Origin: a virus
Length of the DNA stretch: 30,740 nucleotides
IMG/VR virus record: IMGVR_UViG_3300031658_000065
Coordinates: 1 to 30,740 of that record
Strand: one strand, 5' to 3'
The notes under the pieces were generated by a model. It was not told where the DNA came from. It was given only the letters and a program-made list of their open reading frames with translations, and ran no database searches. The position numbers and the translations under genes were made by a program. This document shows positions 13,959-30,740 of the stretch, piece after piece (the first letter of the stretch is position 1; each line of letters opens with the position of its first letter).

Positions 13959-15299
13959 TTAAAACTGTGCTTTGAGTGAAGCTATTAATTCGTTTTGCGT
14001 ACCTGCTTTTGACGCAATTGCTGTCATTACTTTTTCATCAATTGTGTTTTCAGCAATTAAATGTACAACTCTTACCGGTTTTTCCTGCCCTTGCCTGTGC
14101 AAACGCCCGTTGAATTGCTGATATAATTCAAGCGACCAGTTAAGCCCATACCACACAATCATTGAGCCGCCATGCTGGAGATTAAGCCCATGCCCAGCCG
14201 AAGCAGGATGAGCAAGTAACATCTTTATTTCGTTATTGTTCCAACGTTCAACAGCCAAACCTTTTTTATCCATGACAACCGCGTTAGGGAATTTCTCAAT
14301 TAACTTTGCAAGGTCAAACTTGTAGTTATACGCCACTAACATATTTTCATTAGGGTTTTCTTCTACCAACTCCGCGAGCGCGTCAAGTTTATGGTTATGG
14401 ATTGTAGTATATTTACCAGTATCATCAACATACATTGCGCCGTTAGCGTATTGAAGTAATTTATTTGCAAGTGTCGCCGCAGATAAGGCCGTTATTTTTT
14501 CACCACCAATATCAGCGATAAATTCTTTTTCAAGCGTCTTATATTGTTTTGCTTGTGCATTAGTTAATTGTATTAATTGCGTTGAATCAATTCGGTCTGG
14601 CATTGTAAGATAGTCGTCAGCTTTCATAGTCACAACAATGTCTGATAATTTGCGCTCTATCTTTTCGCCCGCATCGTGCATTGGTTCAAACTTATACCCC
14701 ATATAATCAGTGGTAAAATACCGTTGCTTGTAGGTTGTCATTGAACGGCCAAGACGAGTACCATCATCTAACAGCGTTATTTGCGCCCAAACATCTAAAA
14801 GCCCATTGGGTGACGGCGTGCCAGTGAGTTGCACCATTCTATCAATAAACGGGAACACTTTGCGTAATGCTTTAAACCGTTGGCTTTTACTTGATTTAAA
14901 AGAACTTGATTCATCGACCACCACCATATCAAACGGCCATTTTTTACCGTAAAACTCCACCAACCATTTCACGTTTTCGCGGTTAATAATATAGATGTCA
15001 GCAGTTCGGAGCAGTTGCGCCTGTCGTTCTTTAACCGAGCCAGTGCAAATTCTATAGGTTAAATGCCTTGTATGCTCCCATTGCATTAGCTCTTTATGCC
15101 ATGTGGTGTTAGCAACGCGTAACGGGGCTATGATTAATGTTTTATGAATGTCAAAGCTATCTGACAAATCAGCGATAGCGGTTAAACTGGTCAAGGTCTT
15201 GCCAAGTCCTAAATCCAACCATAAAGCGCACTTAGGAGTATGCTTTATGAATTCAACGCATTTGACTTGGTACGGGTGAAGCATTTCCCTAGTAAGCAT
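13959..15299 (-). CDS. SNF2-type (SF2) helicase/ATPase, 446 aa
   Basis: All main SF2/SNF2 motifs are visible: 'LHPYQVKCVEF' (about 7-17), Walker A 'DLGLGKT' (29-35), Walker B 'VVVDESSSFK' (126-135), motif III 'LTGTPSPN' (158-165), motif V 'GHGLNLQHG' and motif VI 'QFNGRLHRQGQ'. Similar phage proteins lie next to VRR-NUC nucleases in replication modules and are thought to act in recombination-linked replication or fork restart. The start at 15299 overlaps the nuclease stop by 11 bases; a longer frame from 15335 would run deeper into the nuclease. Confidence 0.9.
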   Translation of the reverse strand: MLTREMLHPYQVKCVEFIKHTPKCALWLDLGLGKTLTSLTAIADLSDSFDIHKTLIIAPLRVANTTWHKELMQWEHTRHLTYRICTGSVKERQAQLLRTADIYIINRENVKWLVEFYGKKWPFDMVVVDESSSFKSSKSQRFKALRKVFPFIDRMVQLTGTPSPNGLLDVWAQITLLDDGTRLGRSMTTYKQRYFTTDYMGYKFEPMHDAGEKIERKLSDIVVTMKADDYLTMPDRIDSTQLIQLTNAQAKQYKTLEKEFIADIGGEKITALSAATLANKLLQYANGAMYVDDTGKYTTIHNHKLDALAELVEENPNENMLVAYNYKFDLAKLIEKFPNAVVMDKKGLAVERWNNNEIKMLLAHPASAGHGLNLQHGGSMIVWYGLNWSLELYQQFNGRLHRQGQEKPVRVVHLIAENTIDEKVMTAIASKAGTQNELIASLKAQF

Positions 15300-15558
15300 T
15301 GAATATTTCCTTACCTTGTTTGATTGAGTCAACAACGTAAACTGGTATTAGTTGCTTGTTTAGTCTGTCGATTTGGTGTTGTTGAAGTTTTGACGGACTT
15401 TTCCCTAACTGCTTAAACTCAATTAGCAGTGTTGTGCCGTCGCGGAAATAAATGTGGTCTGGCACAGCGCGGTTTCCCGGTGACGTAAACTTATACGCAA
15501 TCCATCCTAAAAGCTCCGCATATTGAGACACTTTCTTTTCAATCACTGATTCAAGCAT
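15289..15558 (-). CDS. VRR-NUC nuclease, 88-89 aa
   Basis: The motif set 'GNRAVPDHIYFRDGTTLLIEFKQLGKSPSKLQ' in two parts (G..vPD, then EFK, then Q) is the PD-(D/E)XK core of the stand-alone VRR-NUC domain. These nucleases can cut branched DNA such as Holliday junctions. The start chosen, MLESVIEKK at 15558, has GGGGG seven bases upstream and overlaps the polymerase stop; the longer frame from 15576 begins inside the polymerase gene. It is paired with an SNF2 helicase, as in many phages. Confidence 0.88.
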   Translation of the reverse strand: MLESVIEKKVSQYAELLGWIAYKFTSPGNRAVPDHIYFRDGTTLLIEFKQLGKSPSKLQQHQIDRLNKQLIPVYVVDSIKQGKEIFNAY

Positions 15559-17287
15559 TGTTAACCCCCAAATCATTTAACAGCGAATACGCGTTCTCAA
15601 CGTACCATTGCCAATCAATATCAAGTGGCAGCGTGTCGGGCAAATCCATTAACGGTTTACAACCATCACTTTTAGGAACTTTATTACCATTTTTCTTGTA
15701 AGTTATCACTTCACCGTCAACGCTATGATAATAACGTATTGCGCCGCCGATTAAATCACCTTTAAATATAGCGCCGCCGGTAACTTTTCGCACGGTTAAA
15801 AACTTGGTGACATCATCACACGATTTTATGGTTTCTTCTATCGCAATATCTTTTGTTAGATAATCCATCACAGCCTCAACGCAAATATTGTTTGACGGGT
15901 TCTTCATTAATCCGCCGATAGCATAAGCGCCTTTACCTTTTACGCCGTTTTCTTTTACCGCAATGTAGTTGTTTACGTCACGGGCGTAGGTCGCTAAATA
16001 GGGAGTATACTCGTACTCATAACCCGATAGTAGTTCGCACTCAAATATTGCTGTTTCAATGGCAACCGAGTTAGTCCTATCGTAAATTACGTTAATGCCG
16101 TCAGTGTTTGCAGAGACAACTCGACCCCCTGCTCGGGTAACTTTTTCAATTGTCATTAACAGGAACAATTGGCCCGTAATGGTTGTTTGAATTAACAGCT
16201 CAGGGGAATAGAGGAATGAATAGTGTGATCCGAACTTCCCATAACTACCGTTTAACACGATTTTATAGGTTTGCGCTGTTCGTGGGTCAGACTTTTTAAC
16301 ACGCATTCGCGTTTCTTTGATGTCACTATATATAGATAAAAAACCTTTACCTAAATGCTCAGGGTAAAGCCCTTGCTCAATAATGATTGACGGGTACATT
16401 GATGCTATATCAAATTCGCCAAATAGTTGCTCGGCAGTTGGCTCAATCACTTGCTTCTTTTCTTGCGAGTGTAACCCGCCAATTCCGAATTTGTATTTCG
16501 CGCCGTTAAACTCAACTGCCTTGTTTAGTTCTTCGGGCATTTTTGGCTTTCCTGCATCAGACACTTCAAACGTGCAATCAATAACCTTTTTTAACATTTC
16601 GTTAAATTCAGGCGATTCAAATTCTACCCAATCGGGCAATCTATATTTGAAAGGTAAAACCTGCGCTTGTCGTTTACCAACACGAACACCTTTAGCAGTT
16701 AGGTATGAGCGAAATAATGCTTCGGCAATTTGAGCATCAGACTTTGAACGCAAGTCAACGCTATATTCTTTTGATAATTCTGAGCGAAGTTTAATGTCTT
16801 TTTCTATTGCTAGATATAACTCTTTTGTTGTTACTAAATCATTCACGCAGTAATCGCGCAGAAGCTTTCGTTGATTTGGGGATATAGAAGCGCTTGGCTC
16901 AATTGGCAGGTCCTGCAATTTCTCGCACTTTAATCGCCCACCATATATTTTTAAGCTAGTCATAACACCGGGCGCTGGCTCTTTAACATCTATATGATTA
17001 CATTCTGGCTTTTCCATGCCCCACGTTTTAGCGCCACCAATGATTGAGTCAGATAGCCGCTTTAGTTGCTCGTTATCAGCGCCACAAAGTGCGAGTTGTA
17101 ACATCGGCATGTCATAATGATTGCCGTTAAAGGTTATTATCAAACCTTTATCTAATATTTTACGAACACCTTTAACATCTAGCGGGCATCCGTCGAAAAT
17201 CTCAAAATGTTTTATTGCGCCATCTTCGCGTAAAAAGCTAATTAGCCAGTAATCAATATAACATTCAATGTCAGCGTAGTATTTCAT
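15551..17287 (-). CDS. Family B DNA polymerase with 3'-5' exonuclease, 578 aa
   Basis: Exonuclease motifs: ExoI 'YADIECY' (D6, E8), ExoII 'NGNHYD' (about 54-59) and ExoIII 'YCVND' (Y146, D150). Polymerase motifs: A 'FDIASMYPSI' (D293), B 'KIVLNGSYG' (K342, N346, Y349) and C 'SANTDGI' (D396). Motif C has Asn in place of the usual first Asp, and Gly for Ser. Only 49 residues separate motif A Asp from motif B Lys, too few for the TPR2-type insertion of phi29-like protein-primed enzymes, so it probably uses RNA/DNA primers from the PrimPol. Its gene follows an apparent terminator after the ssDNA-binding protein. Confidence 0.9.
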   Translation of the reverse strand: MKYYADIECYIDYWLISFLREDGAIKHFEIFDGCPLDVKGVRKILDKGLIITFNGNHYDMPMLQLALCGADNEQLKRLSDSIIGGAKTWGMEKPECNHIDVKEPAPGVMTSLKIYGGRLKCEKLQDLPIEPSASISPNQRKLLRDYCVNDLVTTKELYLAIEKDIKLRSELSKEYSVDLRSKSDAQIAEALFRSYLTAKGVRVGKRQAQVLPFKYRLPDWVEFESPEFNEMLKKVIDCTFEVSDAGKPKMPEELNKAVEFNGAKYKFGIGGLHSQEKKQVIEPTAEQLFGEFDIASMYPSIIIEQGLYPEHLGKGFLSIYSDIKETRMRVKKSDPRTAQTYKIVLNGSYGKFGSHYSFLYSPELLIQTTITGQLFLLMTIEKVTRAGGRVVSANTDGINVIYDRTNSVAIETAIFECELLSGYEYEYTPYLATYARDVNNYIAVKENGVKGKGAYAIGGLMKNPSNNICVEAVMDYLTKDIAIEETIKSCDDVTKFLTVRKVTGGAIFKGDLIGGAIRYYHSVDGEVITYKKNGNKVPKSDGCKPLMDLPDTLPLDIDWQWYVENAYSLLNDLGVNNA

Positions 17288-17293
17288 AGTAAT

Positions 17294-17317
17294 AAAAAAG
17301 GGGCGTTAACGCCCCTT
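17294..17317 (-). terminator. Leftward terminator/attenuator between ssDNA-binding protein and polymerase
   Basis: The 20-bp palindrome at 17298-17317 (arms AAGGGGCG and CGCCCCTT around TTAA) is followed on the minus strand by six T (17299-17294). It lies after the ssDNA-binding protein gene and 11 bases before the polymerase start, so it should cut most transcripts there. Confidence 0.82.
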
Positions 17318-17344: not shown

Positions 17345-17866
17345 TTAGAAATCATCGTTATCACTGGCAAGGTCGCCGTAATCTTCAAAATCACTACTAG
17401 GGTCAGAAGAACCACCAAAGCGTTCACCAGCTTTAATGTATTGAACACCATTGAGGCTAGCGTTAACACGTTGGCCGTAAGTGTTATCTTGCAACCATAA
17501 ATTGATTGAAGCACTTATGATGTCGCCCCCTTGCATGTCGCAGGTTTCAATATCAAGTAATTCTTTACGAACATTGTAGATAGGTATAATCTTATTTGAT
17601 GTTGCTTTGATTGTATAGTGTCCGACGTATTCTTCACGACCTGAAACATCACCATCTTTAAGGCATATTTTATCGTCAGGTATTGCCTTGCTTGACTCAG
17701 ATTTCATTGATTCAATGTCAGCTTTAATTTGAGTGATTAACTCAGCGTTTTTCTCTTTATGAAGCATGATAGTAACTTCACGTTTACCATCAGGGCCAAA
17801 CTTGGTATTGGCTTTGAAAACGTGAGGGAATGAACATACAACTTCTTTAGCTACGAATTTACTCAT
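17345..17866 (-). CDS. ssDNA-binding protein (DUF2815, T7 gp2.5-like), copy 1, 173 aa
   Basis: The N-terminus 'VAKEVVCSFPHVFKANTKFGPDG' and the core 'DIISASINLWLQDNTYGQRVNASLNGVQYIK' match the DUF2815 group of OB-fold single-strand binding proteins. The C-terminus is acidic and ends in an aromatic residue ('DFEDYGDLASDNDDF'), as in gp2.5, where this tail contacts polymerase and helicase. It probably coats ssDNA during replication. AGGAAG precedes the ATG. It has its own promoter (17930-17958) and terminator, so it should be expressed more than its neighbours. Confidence 0.87.
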   Translation of the reverse strand: MSKFVAKEVVCSFPHVFKANTKFGPDGKREVTIMLHKEKNAELITQIKADIESMKSESSKAIPDDKICLKDGDVSGREEYVGHYTIKATSNKIIPIYNVRKELLDIETCDMQGGDIISASINLWLQDNTYGQRVNASLNGVQYIKAGERFGGSSDPSSDFEDYGDLASDNDDF

Positions 17867-17898
17867 TTTATTTCTTCCTGTTTTGGATTTTAGTTTTT

Positions 17899-17926
17899 AA
17901 TCAGACAGCGGTTTTGCTGCCTGATT
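17899..17926 (-). promoter_or_regulatory. Hairpin at the 5' end of the ssDNA-binding protein mRNA
   Basis: On the minus strand AATCAGGCAGC and GCTGTCTGATT pair over 11 bp with one G-U and a six-base loop. The predicted transcript start (about 17923) falls at its first arm. No U run follows on that strand, so it is not a clear terminator. A stabilising 5' hairpin for an abundant mRNA is one possibility. Confidence 0.5.
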
Positions 17927-17938
17927 TGTAATTTACAA
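17926..17938. promoter_or_regulatory. Operator-like palindrome, copy 1
   Basis: TTGTAATTTACAA is a 13-bp palindrome (6-base arms around T). The same 13-mer occurs at 20011-20023. Here it covers the -10 box of the promoter for the first ssDNA-binding protein gene. Confidence 0.7.
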
Positions 17939-17958
17939 CGTTAGCTTTAAACTGTCAA
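17930..17958 (-). promoter_or_regulatory. Leftward promoter for ssDNA-binding protein copy 1
   Basis: On the minus strand, a perfect -35 TTGACA (17958-17953) lies 17 bases before TAAATT (17935-17930). The -10 box sits inside the operator-like palindrome, so a bound repressor would block it. Confidence 0.72.
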
Positions 17959-17959
17959 G

Positions 17960-18469
17960 CTAAAATTCACATTCATTTTCATTTTCTTCAAAATCTTCAA
18001 ACGCCGCTTTCGCATCCATATCATTACGGCTAGGTGCTTCAAGCAATTTAACAGCGTGAACATTTGCACGTACTGCTTTACCGTACGAATTGTCTTGAAA
18101 CCAGTAAGATACTTGGGCGAGTACCGTTGCACCTTTAACAATCATATCCGCCGCTTGAGCGTTACTCATGTTATTGTTATCAGCGTCAATACAAGCGACA
18201 GGTTTGCTTGATGTTAGCTTTAATACATAACCGTCGGAGTTAAACGCGAACGACGTTGTATCACCATCATAGAGATTGGTATTCGCGCCATCATAGTTAA
18301 ATGTTGCAGAGAACCCACAGTCATTGGGTATTGATTCCGATAGCGCTTTTTTAGTCACTTTTAAGGTGGGGCTGTTTTTAGCAATGACAATCTCCGCCCC
18401 ATACTTACCGTACATGTTAGGTTGGGTTAAGTGCGGAAAGTTTATTTTACCTTTAATCATGTGTTTCAT
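17960..18469 (-). CDS. ssDNA-binding protein paralogue (DUF2815-like), copy 2, 169 aa
   Basis: The protein shares with copy 1 the block 'SYWFQDNSYGKAVRANVHAVKLLEA' (copy 1: 'NLWLQDNTYGQRVNASLNGVQYI') and a long acidic, aromatic-ended tail ('AFEDFEENENECEF'). The N-terminus 'MIKGKINFPHLTQPNMYGKYGAEIVI' aligns with the first OB-fold strand region. Two such proteins in one 30-kb phage suggests division of labour, for example replication and recombination annealing. The gene is 11 bases downstream of the nuclease gene. Confidence 0.8.
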   Translation of the reverse strand: MKHMIKGKINFPHLTQPNMYGKYGAEIVIAKNSPTLKVTKKALSESIPNDCGFSATFNYDGANTNLYDGDTTSFAFNSDGYVLKLTSSKPVACIDADNNNMSNAQAADMIVKGATVLAQVSYWFQDNSYGKAVRANVHAVKLLEAPSRNDMDAKAAFEDFEENENECEF

Positions 18470-18480
18470 ATTTATACCCT

Positions 18481-19605
18481 TTAAAAGTCGTTTTTAGTTA
18501 ATTCGTTATTTAGCTCAATTATTGATTTACGCTTATCACTTTCTTTAGCGATTGACGTTTTACCGCGAGGCTTTATCACCAATTGCGCGAACTCTTTAAA
18601 ATCATCTTTACCAATTAGCTTTTCCGCTTGTGTTGGTGAAATGAGTTTGTGCGTATAAAGGTTATCGCCCAATTGATTTTGCAATAGGGCAATTGTTTGC
18701 GATTCATCACCCCACCGTCTTGTGCCTCGACCTTCGACAAGCTTAAAACCCGTAATGGTTTTACCTTGGCTCATATCTTCAAACGCTTTTAACTCAACTG
18801 ATTTCAGCCACGCCTCAATTAATGATTTGTAGGGTAATATGTCAGCGGGGTTAACTTCATCGACTACCGGTAACTCCTGATAGTTGGCGAAGTCGTTTTT
18901 GATAACATCTTGTGTCACTCGCAACAGTTCTTGGCAGTTGGGTTTATGAGCGCACCATTGGCACTGTTTATCACCTGCCGCAAGTTCACCATTACCCGAT
19001 AACGCCTCATTAGCGCGACGGGTAACAAACTCGCCCCACGTTAAAAGGTCGTCGGTAGTGATTGACCAACTAGATATATTATTGGTGCGTGGTTGGTAGA
19101 TGTGCAAAGTAAAGGATTCAATATCATAAATGAATCCGTATTCTTGAAGCACTCCGAGCGCGTAAAGTTTTAACTGTGAGTTGTCTTCCGCATCAACTGA
19201 AATACCACGACCATATTTAAGGTCAACAATATCAACGTGGCTATCATTGATGATTATTGTGTCAGATGTTCCGAAACCTTCTGGCACATAATCGCTAAAT
19301 GATACGCGCTGCTCAATCATTAGTTCACCACCAAGGGCGCGAATATAATCAACATAACCATTAATGTATTCAGCCATTTCAGCGTCAACGGTTATTTTAG
19401 GGGCATCTTTTAGGTTTTTACCAATATAGCTTTCTGGCGCGTTACCAGTGCTAAGGCAAATTTCCCCTAACTCATGGGCACAAGTTCCTTCTTCGGCTGC
19501 GGCTGACGTTCTATTAGGGTAACTGCTAGATAATCTTACAGAACCCGGACAGAGCAACCAACGTGAGGATGAACTTGCTGATAACTTAGCGTGAGCGATA
19601 ACCAT
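18481..19605 (-). CDS. RecB/Cas4-like nuclease (DUF2800), 374 aa
   Basis: The protein opens 'HAKLSASSSSRWLLCPGS', the usual DUF2800 start. Nuclease residues are H44-E45 ('CAHELGE'), D115 ('FGTSDT'), D128-L-K130 ('VDIVDLKYG') and Q144-x3-Y148 ('QLKLY'), the PD-(D/E)XK core of RecB-type exonucleases. C19 plus C215-x2-C218-x5-C224 ('CQWCAHKPNC') match the four-Cys iron-sulfur layout of AddB/Cas4 enzymes. It probably resects DNA ends for recombination with the two ssDNA-binding proteins. It lies one base after the preceding gene in the operon. Confidence 0.87.
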   Translation of the reverse strand: MVIAHAKLSASSSSRWLLCPGSVRLSSSYPNRTSAAAEEGTCAHELGEICLSTGNAPESYIGKNLKDAPKITVDAEMAEYINGYVDYIRALGGELMIEQRVSFSDYVPEGFGTSDTIIINDSHVDIVDLKYGRGISVDAEDNSQLKLYALGVLQEYGFIYDIESFTLHIYQPRTNNISSWSITTDDLLTWGEFVTRRANEALSGNGELAAGDKQCQWCAHKPNCQELLRVTQDVIKNDFANYQELPVVDEVNPADILPYKSLIEAWLKSVELKAFEDMSQGKTITGFKLVEGRGTRRWGDESQTIALLQNQLGDNLYTHKLISPTQAEKLIGKDDFKEFAQLVIKPRGKTSIAKESDKRKSIIELNNELTKNDF

Positions 19606-19606
19606 G

Positions 19607-19960
19607 TTATAACTCCGCTTTAAGCTTAGTCATAACAACTTCAATCTCACTATCTTTAACGTCAGAAGCTTTTGTCGCCCCTGCTGCGTTTAAAATACCT
19701 TTAGCCAATAGCTTGCCACCGCTAACGCTACGAGATAGTTCAAGGCACAATGCTTTTATATCATCGGTTGTTGAAGGTATTACGGTTGGTTTTAGTGGTT
19801 TTAGTGGCGTTGCTGTTGGTGTTGGTGTGTCATGCACGGGTTTTACCGTTTCGTGTGCAGGTTCTTTTAATGATATTACTTCATTAGTTGCCAAGTTCAT
19901 TGACGCGGTTAATGCTTCAATTGCTAGGGTTAATGCTTCAATTTTATTTTCAAGTGACAT
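19607..19960 (-). CDS. Hypothetical protein with coiled coil and Pro/Thr linker, 117 aa
   Basis: Residues 1-30 form a heptad helix ('NKIEALTLAIEALTASMNLA'). Residues about 33-65 are a linker rich in Pro and Thr ('PVHDTPTPTATPLKPLKP'), and the rest is a compact helical domain ('DIKALCLELSRSVSGG', 'ASDVKDSEIEVVMTKLKAEL'). It leads the leftward replication operon and adjoins the DUF2800 nuclease, so it may act with it. It may be a multimer-forming DNA or protein adaptor, but no family is recognised. Confidence 0.65.
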   Translation of the reverse strand: MSLENKIEALTLAIEALTASMNLATNEVISLKEPAHETVKPVHDTPTPTATPLKPLKPTVIPSTTDDIKALCLELSRSVSGGKLLAKGILNAAGATKASDVKDSEIEVVMTKLKAEL

Positions 19961-20010
19961 ATTTATTATCCTTTATATGTGTTTAATCAATTATTTTTGC
20001 GTAATCGCAG

Positions 20011-20023
20011 TTGTAATTTACAA
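20011..20023. promoter_or_regulatory. Operator-like palindrome, copy 2
   Basis: The same 13-bp TTGTAATTTACAA as at 17926-17938. It lies in the 110-bp region between the leftward replication operon and the rightward Cro-like gene, so one repressor could control both directions. Confidence 0.7.
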
Positions 20024-20043
20024 TCAAATGCTTAATAATGCAA
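20015..20043 (-). promoter_or_regulatory. Leftward replication operon promoter
   Basis: On the minus strand TTGCAT (20043-20038) and TAAATT (20020-20015) are 17 bases apart. The -10 box sits at the same place in the palindrome as in the 17930-17958 promoter. The -35 match is weak; the identical geometry at two sites is the main support. Confidence 0.55.
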
Positions 20044-20070: not shown

Positions 20071-20268
20071 ATGATTGATGACATGGCGTTATTACTGACA
20101 GAGTACAATTTTAACAAATCGGAGTTAGCGAGGCGGCTAGGTGTTTCACCGCAAGCCATTGCTAACAGTTATGATAACGGATTTTTCAGTTATTCGCTGG
20201 CAATACAAATTGAAAAACTAACTAATGGTAAATATAAGGCGGTTAACTTATGCAAAAATTCCCTTTAA
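20071..20268 (+). CDS. Cro-like HTH repressor, 65 aa
   Basis: 'NKSELARRLGVSPQAIANSYDNGFF' is a helix-turn-helix of the Cro/YdaS type, followed by 'YSLAIQIEKLTNGKYKAVNLC', the 'A..IE.lT.G...a..l' segment usual in that family. AAGG at 20059-20062 lies eight bases before ATG 20071. The protein probably binds TTGTAATTTACAA at 20011-20023, controlling the divergent promoters including its own. It overlaps the next gene by 19 bases, so repressor and replication initiator are translated together. The target is inferred from context. Confidence 0.8.
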   Translation: MIDDMALLLTEYNFNKSELARRLGVSPQAIANSYDNGFFSYSLAIQIEKLTNGKYKAVNLCKNSL

Positions 20269-22415
20269 ATCCTGACAAATCCCCAGCGTGTTCAGCTTGG
20301 CAGACTTTTGCCGGTAATGTTAGCGGTGAAGGTATGTTTGGTGTAACACCACCATCAGGTTTTTACGTGATAGATGTTGACTCATACAAAGAGGACGGTA
20401 TAAAAGAAAAAATCGAACAGGTTTTAGGCTGTTCGATTAATTGGGAAGAAAGCCATATCCAAACGACTTTAAACGGTGGTACGCACCACGCGTTTATTAT
20501 ACCTGATAACGTGAAACTTATCCAAGGTTCAAACATGATGGGCGTTCAAGGTTTTGATACAAGAGCATCTGGCAGGGGCTATATTGCTTCGGGTGAAGGT
20601 TATAGCGTAATTGATGCTGATGATGTTTGTTCAAGATTTGATGATTTCTTACCAGAGTTACCAAAAGAGGCGTTGGCTAAATTAACAGTTTCACTCGGTA
20701 AAGATATGTTATCTGTTGATAAAACTTTCAGAGCTGCCGAGTCAGTTGTAACTAATTCTGATGGTTCACCTTTGACCAAATCACAAATGATAGCAACGCT
20801 TGAAAACCTACCAAGTGAGATTGGCACTGACAATGATTCATGGGTTGATGTTTGCGCTGGGTTCAAGCGTCAATTGCTTGCGATGGGTGTTAATGAAGAA
20901 CGTGTAAACGCTAAAGATGGTTGGGGTTTTAAAGTGTTGACGCTATGGTCAAAGAAACGTTTTAGCGGCACTGATGCTGAGTTTTCAAAGGTCAATTCTA
21001 GCAATTATAATCGTTGGAAATCTTTCAAACTAAATGATGATGGTAATGCTGGTAAGATAATAACGTTTAAAAGTGTTATTAGTTTGGCTAAAGATAATGG
21101 TGGGTTACCACAATCGCCTGAGGTTGTTAAAGCTACGGGTGAAAAGTTAAAAGCTGAATGTTCATTTATTAATGATTACGTGATGGATGCAAAAACTGGC
21201 GGTTATATAAGACGTGACAACTTAGTTGAATACCGAAAAGACGCGTATAACAACGAACATTTGTTTGAAACACCGTTAAACAGTAAAGGTAACCCACAAA
21301 AGCCATCTGAAATTTCATTGGGCCACACAGAAGTAGTTAGCGACGTGATGTATGCACCATCGTTTGAGCAAGTGTTTACACTAGTTGATGATGGGCGCAA
21401 ATACTTAAACTCATATATTGAACCAAAACATAAAAGCTGTGGTGAAATTGATAGTGAAGAAGTTAAAGCAGCATTGGTGTTAGTGACAAATCACCTTGAA
21501 CACTTGTTAGATGATAAAAAAGAGCGTGAATTGATTCTTTTTTATCTAGCCCACAACATTCAATTCCCCGGTAAAAAACTTCCGTGGGGGATAATTCTAC
21601 AAGGGGCGCAAGGGGATGGTAAGAGTTTTTTCGCGGAGATGATGCGAATGGTAATGGGTAAATCAAATGTTCGTGTGATGAATGCTGACACGTTGCAGAG
21701 TAATTTTTCAGGTTGGGCTGCTGGGCAATGTATGGTTTTCATTGAGGAATTAAAGCTTGATAACTTTAAGAAGTACGAGATTGTTAACAGAATAAAACCT
21801 TATATCTCTAATCCCACGATTGAGTGGGTTAGAAAATATAAAGAGCCGTTAACTTGTCCTAACACTTCAAACTATTTTTGTTTTACCAATTACAAAGATG
21901 CTATCCCGTTAGATGATAATGACCGTCGTTATGCTGTGTTTTTTAGCAAATGGCAGGGTAGTAGTATTGCAAAATGGAATGAAGAAAACCCAAAATACTA
22001 CCCGGAGTTGTACAACAAAATGCGCAAATCGGGCGAAGCGTTATATTGTGCTTTTGCAAATATAACAATTCCTGATTGGTTTTTACAGCTAAATAGAGCG
22101 CCAAAAACTATCGCGCGTCAGGCAATGATTTCATTAAGTCGTTCACCTGCTGTTAAAGATGTCCAAGAAGCGATTGACGATTTAGCTGATAAAGTACTTC
22201 TTGATGATGGTAAAACACTCAATGCAACATTGCTTGGTGTGCAAATAAAGGTGGAAAGACAGGTCGAAGATGATGACACTTTATATGCAAATTTCCCTGA
22301 CCCAGTGAAAGAAGCAATGAAACTTATTAAAGTTATTGAGTCGATGGGGTGGGTTAAATCGGCAAAAAGGCAAAGAGTTGAAGGTAAACTTTGTACGGTT
22401 TACCATAAAATGTAG
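20250..22415 (+). CDS. Primase-polymerase fused to SF3-like helicase, 721 aa
   Basis: N-terminal PrimPol (AEP) domain: motif I 'VIDVDSYK' (D42, D44), motif II 'LNGGTHHAFI' (H79/H80) and motif III 'QGFDTRASGRGYIASG' (D103, R105). The C-terminal half holds Walker A 'GAQGDGKSFF' (about 453-462), Walker B 'VFIEELK' (about 494-500), 'YFCFTNYKDAIPLDDNDRRYAV' with sensor and arginine finger. This is the plan of phage and plasmid replication initiators that both prime and unwind. Its gene is followed immediately by the iteron array, the likely origin. Start ATG 20250, with AAGGCGG before it inside the Cro-like gene. Confidence 0.9.
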   Translation: MQKFPLNPDKSPACSAWQTFAGNVSGEGMFGVTPPSGFYVIDVDSYKEDGIKEKIEQVLGCSINWEESHIQTTLNGGTHHAFIIPDNVKLIQGSNMMGVQGFDTRASGRGYIASGEGYSVIDADDVCSRFDDFLPELPKEALAKLTVSLGKDMLSVDKTFRAAESVVTNSDGSPLTKSQMIATLENLPSEIGTDNDSWVDVCAGFKRQLLAMGVNEERVNAKDGWGFKVLTLWSKKRFSGTDAEFSKVNSSNYNRWKSFKLNDDGNAGKIITFKSVISLAKDNGGLPQSPEVVKATGEKLKAECSFINDYVMDAKTGGYIRRDNLVEYRKDAYNNEHLFETPLNSKGNPQKPSEISLGHTEVVSDVMYAPSFEQVFTLVDDGRKYLNSYIEPKHKSCGEIDSEEVKAALVLVTNHLEHLLDDKKERELILFYLAHNIQFPGKKLPWGIILQGAQGDGKSFFAEMMRMVMGKSNVRVMNADTLQSNFSGWAAGQCMVFIEELKLDNFKKYEIVNRIKPYISNPTIEWVRKYKEPLTCPNTSNYFCFTNYKDAIPLDDNDRRYAVFFSKWQGSSIAKWNEENPKYYPELYNKMRKSGEALYCAFANITIPDWFLQLNRAPKTIARQAMISLSRSPAVKDVQEAIDDLADKVLLDDGKTLNATLLGVQIKVERQVEDDDTLYANFPDPVKEAMKLIKVIESMGWVKSAKRQRVEGKLCTVYHKM

Positions 22416-22455
22416 TTTCAAAAACTTTATCAAAAACCCTGATACACCCTGATAC

Positions 22456-22490
22456 CCTGATACTTTTATTAAAAGTATCAGGTTTTTTTT
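22456..22490 (+). terminator. Terminator built from inverted iterons
   Basis: CCTGATACTTTT (22456-22467) and AAAAGTATCAGG (22471-22482) form a perfect 12-bp stem with loop ATT, then eight T (22483-22490). It should stop transcription 40-75 bases after the PrimPol-helicase gene. Its left arm is the third iteron. Confidence 0.88.
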
Positions 22491-22750
22491 ACTTACCCTG
22501 ATACAAATCGCCTACCCTGATACTCTACCCTGATACACCTTTTTCTTTTTAAAATCAATAACTTAACCCCTACTGTTCAGGGTGTATCAGGGTTTTTAAT
22601 GAAATATATATAAAGTAGTAGAATAGGGATATAGAGATTTAGGATATAGCGGTTTTATTGTATAGGGTTTTTAAATACTTTTTGCAAAAGGGTGAACACC
22701 CTGATACTTTAGCTATAAAGCTTTATATATCAAAGGTTTAACCCTGATAC

Positions 22751-22778
22751 CATACCCTGATACTAATATCAGGGTATG
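22751..22778. repeat. Perfect 12-bp inverted repeat at the right edge of the iterons
   Basis: CATACCCTGATA (22751-22762) and TATCAGGGTATG (22767-22778) are exact inverses around CTAA. It combines the last direct iteron with an inverted one, and lies 16 bases before the late promoter, so it may be a cruciform, a protein site or an operator. Confidence 0.75.
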
Positions 22779-29658: not shown

Positions 29659-30594
29659 ATGAGCACGCAAACATTAGCAGAAGCAAAAAAATTCATTAAC
29701 AACGAAATCGTTGCAGGTGTTGTTGAAGACATCATCACTACTAACCCAATTTGGGGCGCTATGCCTTGGACTGGTTACGCTGGTCAAGCAATTTTAGTTA
29801 ACCGTGAAGACACTTTAGGTGATGCACAGCATTTAGCTATCGGCGGAACTATCACGGCAAAAGCTGCATCAACTGCAATCCAAACTCCATTTACTGCTGT
29901 ATCAACTATTGGTGATGCTGAAATGAATGGCTTAGTACAAGCACAATCATTATCAGGTGGTGTTGATCAGTTAATGGCAGAAGTATCAAGCAAAGCTAAA
30001 TCAGTTGGTCGTTTACTACAAGCAGGTATGGCTTCTGGTACTGGTACTAGCCCACAACTACATTCTTATCATACGCTTACAGATGCTAGCCAGTATACAA
30101 CTGCTTCTGTGGCACAAGGTTTATCTTTCGAATTGTTAGACGAATTACTTGATTTAGTTAAAGCTAAAGATGGCGAAGTTGATTATCTAATCGCTAACGG
30201 TAAGCAATTGCGCAAGTATCGCACACTAGTTCGTGCTTTAGGTGGTGTAAATGAGACTATGGCTTTCGATATGGGTAACGGTCGCACTCGAAACGTTGAT
30301 GTTTATAATGGTGTGCCAATTTTTCAGAACGATTACATCGGTTCAACTGAAACCGCAAACGGTGCAGCCCTTGTTGGCGGCGCATTAAGCAGCGTCTACG
30401 CAGGGTGCTTTGATGATGGTTCGATGAAAATCGGTCAATCAATGATTCATCCTGACGGCATCCCAGTAGGTATTCAAGTTGACCAAGTTGGCCTTGCTGA
30501 ATCTAAAGATGAAAGTATCACTCGCGTTAAGTCTTACAGCAACTTTGTAAACTTTAACCGTCGCGGTCTTGCACGTCTTACTTCATTAACTTAA
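29659..30594 (+). CDS. Major capsid protein, 311 aa
   Basis: The protein begins MSTQTLAEAKKFINNEIVAG, with 'DIITTNPIWGAMPWTGYAGQAILVNRE', a beta-hairpin and extended arm region, and later 'VDVYNGVPIFQNDYIG' and 'GIPVGIQVDQVGL', typical of HK97-fold capsid proteins of about 300 residues. It follows the scaffold gene and has its own promoter. No protease gene is seen nearby, so the scaffold is probably released whole or cut by another protein. The gene ends 21 codons before the hairpin terminator in the terminal overlap. Confidence 0.9.
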   Translation: MSTQTLAEAKKFINNEIVAGVVEDIITTNPIWGAMPWTGYAGQAILVNREDTLGDAQHLAIGGTITAKAASTAIQTPFTAVSTIGDAEMNGLVQAQSLSGGVDQLMAEVSSKAKSVGRLLQAGMASGTGTSPQLHSYHTLTDASQYTTASVAQGLSFELLDELLDLVKAKDGEVDYLIANGKQLRKYRTLVRALGGVNETMAFDMGNGRTRNVDVYNGVPIFQNDYIGSTETANGAALVGGALSSVYAGCFDDGSMKIGQSMIHPDGIPVGIQVDQVGLAESKDESITRVKSYSNFVNFNRRGLARLTSLT

Positions 30595-30740
30595 TAATTA
30601 TTAAGTAAGTATTTAAAAGCCATTCTAACGAGTGGCTTTTATAATATTTATTAGGGGTTAATCATGAAAGTAGAATTAAAAAGCAAAGCAGCTAATTGTC
30701 GTCAATACGGTTTAGAATTTGATTGTGAAGGCGTTGCTGA
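30560..30740. repeat. Right copy of 181-bp terminal overlap
   Basis: The right-hand partner of bases 1-181 (two mismatches). It contains the capsid gene end, the 18-bp palindrome (30589-30606) and the terminator (30615-30640). It closes the map onto the left end. Confidence 0.93.
30664..30740 (+). CDS. Small protein after capsid gene, 5' part (cut by window end)
   Basis: ATG at 30664 starts the same 52-residue protein found complete at 105-263. The first 25 codons are present here. On the circular genome this is one gene. Confidence 0.88.
   Translation, partial: MKVELKSKAANCRQYGLEFDCEGVA

Follow-up and report, generated by a model that had tools for sequence, protein, structure and literature searches.

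Does a 13-bp palindrome that occurs in two promoter gaps of a phage replication module serve as the operator of a Cro-like protein encoded beside one of its copies? The window, i.e. the whole stretch of DNA that was analysed, is a virus record of 30,740 bases. It has a direct terminal repeat of 181 bp (1-181 and 30560-30740, 98.9% identical), which suggests that it is a complete genome of about 30.56 kb, and the phage is of a small, marine type. Its module is read leftward and rightward from a divergent gap. The leftward genes encode, in order, a small phrog_408 protein, a DUF2800/PD-(D/E)XK exonuclease, SSB2, SSB1, a DNA polymerase, a VRR-NUC protein and an SNF2 helicase. The gene of the 65-aa Cro-like protein and an overlapping primase-polymerase gene are read rightward. 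Neither a CI-type repressor facing Cro nor an integrase was found among the ORFs scanned in the window, a scan that covered all ORFs except a 260-aa one between tail genes and several small ones. The features are as follows.

13959 to 15335, minus strand: SNF2-type helicase
15289 to 15576, minus strand: VRR-NUC nuclease
15551 to 17287, minus strand: family B-type DNA polymerase (phrog_1252)
17298 to 17317, minus strand: predicted intrinsic terminator between SSB1 and the DNA polymerase
17345 to 17866, minus strand: SSB1, Enc34/gp2.5-like ssDNA-binding protein, downstream of putative operator copy 1
17926 to 17938, no strand: putative operator copy 1 (TTGTAATTTACAA), over the -10 of the leftward SSB1 promoter; TTGCAACTTACAA is the equivalent before the SSB gene in Vibrio phage 1.017.O
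17930 to 17958, minus strand: predicted SSB1 promoter, TTGACA (17958-17953), 17 bp, TAAATT (17935-17930); 10 of 12 matches, the top score of the promoter scan
17960 to 18469, minus strand: SSB2, Enc34/gp2.5-like ssDNA-binding protein
18481 to 19605, minus strand: DUF2800 / PD-(D/E)XK exonuclease
19607 to 19960, minus strand: small coiled-coil-type protein (phrog_408), first gene of the leftward operon
20011 to 20023, no strand: putative operator copy 2 (TTGTAATTTACAA), in the divergent gap, over the leftward -10 and a possible rightward -35; the same place holds ATGTAAATTACAA in the relative L003 and TTGCAATATACAA in 1.017.O
20011 to 20039, plus strand: predicted rightward promoter of the Cro-like gene, TTGTAA-17-AATAAT, 9 of 12 matches; the L003 equivalent is TTGTAA-17-TAATAT
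20015 to 20043, minus strand: predicted leftward promoter of the coil-DUF2800-SSB2 operon, TTGCAT (20043-20038), 17 bp, TAAATT (20020-20015); hexamers and spacing as in L003
20071 to 20268, plus strand: Cro-like HTH protein of 65 aa, the proposed repressor (Pfam, AlphaFold2, fold matches)
20250 to 22415, plus strand: primase-polymerase/helicase, overlapping the Cro-like gene

The earlier note had placed the 13-mer at 17926 and 20011, and TTGTAATTTACAA was found exactly at these two sites, with no further match in the window at up to two mismatches. TAAATT occupies positions 4-9 of TTGTAAATTACAA in both copies. The hexamer positions confirmed the claim that this -10 box lies at the same place in both palindromes, with TTGACA or TTGCAT at 17 bases, and copy 2 does lie just upstream of the Cro-like gene, as had been noticed. 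Copy 2 also provides TTGTAA, the -35 of the possible promoter toward this gene. One point was refined. Of the two SSB paralogues, it is the second, SSB1, that is encoded downstream of the 17926 site; SSB2 lies upstream of the promoter at that site and would be read from the divergent promoter.

Both ssDNA-binding proteins match Enc34_ssDNA-bd (PF10991), with 70.2 and 29.8 bits against a cut-off of 26. The two paralogues stand in tandem (17345-18469). L003 likewise has two; their separate promoters are nearly identical and carry ATTTAAGTTGACAGCTTAAAT, or a close variant of it, over the -35. On the minus strand at 17899-17926, where the SSB1 mRNA is expected to begin, an 11-bp stem-loop is seen (z 5.5). 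A similar stem-loop is present in L003 (z 4.1), and the stems of several relatives are shorter; the operator dyad confounds this stem-loop test. The noncoding gap behind the primase gene (22435-22764) contains nine direct copies of ACCCTGATAC as well as inverted copies, and this array is a candidate replication origin. Other repeats are present in the corresponding gap of 1.017.O, LP.1 and L003.

A palindrome repeated in one genome might simply reflect a duplicated promoter core, or a chance likeness of two A+T-rich promoters, with no regulator involved. Consistent with this, exact 13-mer repeats and 13-bp palindromes are at about chance level in the window: 47 exact 13-mer repeats were counted in 30 kb outside the terminal repeat, i.e. 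they are not rare, and 14 odd palindromes of 13 bp were found versus 11.8 expected from shuffling. The unusual feature is that both copies lie in two promoter gaps, not the repeat or the palindrome as such. The 13-mer is the sole exact repeat of this length with both copies in noncoding gaps, a separate iteron array aside. When the two intergenic gaps were shuffled, only 8 of 5000 pairs shared any exact 13-mer, which argues against an explanation by chance.

The 65-aa protein itself resembles Cro repressors. It matched Pfam Phage_CI_repr with 28.0 bits (cut-off 22), scored 20.9 bits against P22_Cro, below the curated cut-off of 30.2, and gave a weak match to YdaS, also below cut-off. AlphaFold2, run on a seven-sequence alignment, predicted five helices (pLDDT 88). 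Foldseek with the predicted fold returned Xfaso 1 Cro (3bd1) first (TM about 0.8, E 0.02), then YdaS (TM about 0.5) and, lower, N15 Cro with operator DNA. A second structural comparison gave Z of 9.3 for 3bd1, 7.2 for the N15 Cro-DNA complex (6on0), 6.9 for YdaS (8co2) and 6.8 for P22 Cro (1rzs), and other HTH proteins fell in the same range as 6on0 and 1rzs. The two best structural matches, Xfaso 1 Cro (about 27% identity to the window protein) and YdaS (22-30%), are both prophage elements. Because many HTH folds score alike for so short a helical protein, the fold supports the Cro assignment and does not prove it; gene position and the Pfam matches add to it. Among Cro proteins, those of N15 and P22 are known to be all-helical (PMC4997575). 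Two features expected of a repressor of this type are present, an all-helical fold in the predicted model and, in sequence terms, a palindromic operator lying over two early promoters, one of them its own.

Relatives with matching gene order were taken from phage records and viral contigs and annotated with purpose-built profiles. A search for the 13-mer in relatives had been proposed as a check, and it gave a divided answer: the 13-mer itself is absent from most of them, and many bear another dyad at the same two promoters, which is what co-evolution of operator and repressor predicts. Vibrio phage 1.017.O has its elements in the divergent gap and before SSB, as listed above. The pattern TTGYAANNTACAA occurs exactly twice in this genome of 51,290 bases (45447 and 47585). 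One match lies between the DUF2800 and SSB genes and the other between the coil and Cro genes, and reversing the pattern, as a control, gave no match in the genome. TTGYAANNTACAA also occurs exactly twice in a related contig of L017. 1.017.O was inspected before the pattern was formulated, so what the search tests is where the matches fall and how rare they are across the genome; it does not amount to a blind prediction. Vibrio phage LP.1 carries, in place of Cro, an unrelated 56-aa HTH protein. The 46.8-kb LP.1 genome contains TATTCTTAACTAC only at 19710 and 21250, once in each of the two gaps.

L003 shares the arrangement with two SSBs and gave the best Cro match. Its divergent gap retains ATGTAAATTACAAC and the TTGCAT-17-TAAATT promoter, and the operator site is absent from both of its SSB promoters, which fits the chance or promoter-core explanation. 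A dyad matching the ATTTAAGTTGACAGCTTAAAT of these SSB promoters was not found in the L003 divergent gap. L003 is a real partial exception, with the operator at the divergent promoter only. Further loci were sought in bacterial genomes, where a single-protein scan with PolB gave no loci and an alignment scan gave 13. The Cro alignment was too variable for scanning, and scans with the Cro proteins of the window and 1.017.O revealed no new phage with paired sites.

We compared the divergent gap with the SSB gap across phages. In 31 non-redundant phages, the best ungapped match averaged 9.7 within the same phage and 7.5 in mismatched pairs, and none of 20,000 permutations reached the observed sum. 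Leader sequence close to the ribosome-binding site may account for part of this word-based signal, e.g. in L025. A dyad-based score, which should be less sensitive to leader sequence, was 13.4 in the same phage versus 11.5 in mismatched pairs (25 phages), again with 0 of 20,000 permutations. About ten phages of the set (L006, L024, L060, L107 and others) have no clear shared dyad. The position of the shared element, on our reading of the hexamers, varies: it lies over the -10 in the window, L025 and L026, over the -35 in 1.017.O and over the spacer in L015 and L016. Thus, the shared elements of relatives are mostly dyads over the -10, spacer or -35 and correspond to no fixed promoter element, and this, together with the matched gaps, makes a duplicated promoter core or a chance likeness very unlikely.

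The commonest shared dyad is the P22-Cro-like GTTAAG-N5-CTTAAC, which often replaces the 13-mer in more distant phages. At up to two mismatches in 58 loci, some of them redundant, it was found 27 times in the divergent gap, 19 times in the SSB gap and 29 times elsewhere. The control dyad GAATTG-N5-CAATTC gave 0, 1 and 27 in the same loci, so the excess is confined to the two gaps. TTAAG-class sites go with AAVSQW-like recognition helices, and the TTAG class is found only with GAVSQW. Paired TTGYAA sites are restricted to the clade that comprises the window and 1.017.O, and no more than three lineages are known to have sites of the TTGYAA type. In L132, a single TTGTAATCTACAA stands isolated before SSB. 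Similarity of recognition helices and similarity of operators were correlated with r 0.15 (289 of 5000 permutations; partial 0.05) in a crude comparison in which some helices are misaligned; the general correlation being this weak, the co-variation of helix and operator is a pattern, not proof.

These comparisons also bear on whether the palindrome is the target of a host transcription factor put to use by the phage, and not of the phage's own Cro-like protein. Bacterial regulators commonly bind short A+T-rich palindromes such as TTGTAA-N-TTACAA. Among the matches listed, the same palindrome stands behind a TTG box in many unrelated contigs of viruses, nearly all of which lack the module, and hence the presence of the 13-mer is not diagnostic by itself. 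One contig without the replication module, L157, has two TTGTAA-N-TTACAA palindromes (473 and 3484) 3 kb apart, and thus the palindrome is used in other contexts too. However, related phages of marine Gammaproteobacteria use differing elements, often one and the same at both promoters, and where the phage regulator gene is a different one, so is the element, which makes a host factor improbable.

The different palindromes of relatives recur at the same two promoters, and for this reason a conserved two-promoter repressor circuit is very probably genuine rather than coincidental. The 13-mer is likely to be bound, as its operator, by the Cro-like protein of 20071-20268. This protein would then be a CI-less autorepressor of Cro type, acting at two operators in the manner of lambda OR/OL. 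The earlier note had read the sites as a small regulon of this protein, and the comparative data support that reading, as one phage after another has a shared element at both promoters. Between lineages, this element varies roughly in parallel with the class of recognition helix, and a change of the regulator gene at that position is accompanied by a change of the element. The support at the sequence level consists of the identity and position of the sites, their two-site recurrence in relatives, the change of site with regulator type and the predicted Cro fold. From here we infer binding, repression rather than activation, its timing and the rightward promoter. Bound at 20011-20023, a dimer would overlie two elements, the -10 from which the replication operon is read leftward and the -35 of the promoter that reads the dimer's own gene rightward, and would thus repress both, including its own gene. 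Bound at 17926-17938, a dimer would lie over the -10 of the promoter that serves SSB1 separately. Both sets of replication genes would be on early after infection; the accumulating Cro-like protein would then turn down primase, nuclease and SSBs together, and the polymerase would follow via read-through past the terminator at 17317-17298. The variable overlap with -10, -35 or spacer among phages fits a repressor that blocks RNA polymerase. The same protein could in principle bind both sites chiefly as an activator or a timing switch, but sites that overlap the -10 or -35 itself, at an offset from the promoter that differs between phages, suit occlusion and not contact activation, and we regard such a role as highly improbable.

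Cro of lambda and P22 is a small HTH repressor that acts at palindromic operators over two early promoters, controlling replication, other early genes and its own gene. The window resembles lambda/P22 Cro with OR and OL in having a small HTH protein, the proposed repressor, and putative palindromic operators at two early promoters including its own. It differs in that no CI or integrase is recognised, in that each promoter has one 13-bp site whereas lambda and P22 have three sites of 17-18 bp, and in that the second putative operator lies before SSB1, inside the same leftward gene string. The Cro proteins of the telomere phages N15, PY54 and phiKO2 have the all-helical fold in common with the window protein, and the N15 Cro-operator complex 6on0 is among the closest folds. 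These proteins are part of prophage switches with a CB repressor, whereas the window protein stands alone with replication genes. PY54 Cro binds a single site (PMC4997575). In the Casjensviridae, Burkholderia phage AH2, with an annotated Cro beside the primase, has the gene order of the window, with Cro and primase divergent from small protein, exonuclease, SSB and DNA polymerase; its Cro was not recognised by our purpose-built Cro profile. In the open-access literature, we found no description of a two-operator Cro circuit of this kind. PMC7996906 and PMC9206674, which deal with related modules, mention Cro or DUF2815, and no shared operator is described in the passages found.

We lean toward the broader view that a CI-less Cro regulon is widespread in phages with the DUF2800-SSB-PolB module, with two operators per genome at the divergent and SSB promoters, the operator co-evolving with the recognition helix and both being swapped together when an unrelated HTH regulator replaces Cro. 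If true, this would reveal how a Cro-type protein is retained in phages that have no lysogeny switch, as a means of balancing the supply of SSB, primase and polymerase. It would also provide a natural series of repressor/operator pairs, internally replicated at two sites per genome. This paired series could test rules that link recognition-helix residues to operator bases, a question raised by Hall, Lefevre and Cordes (2005), as they are cited in PMC4997575.
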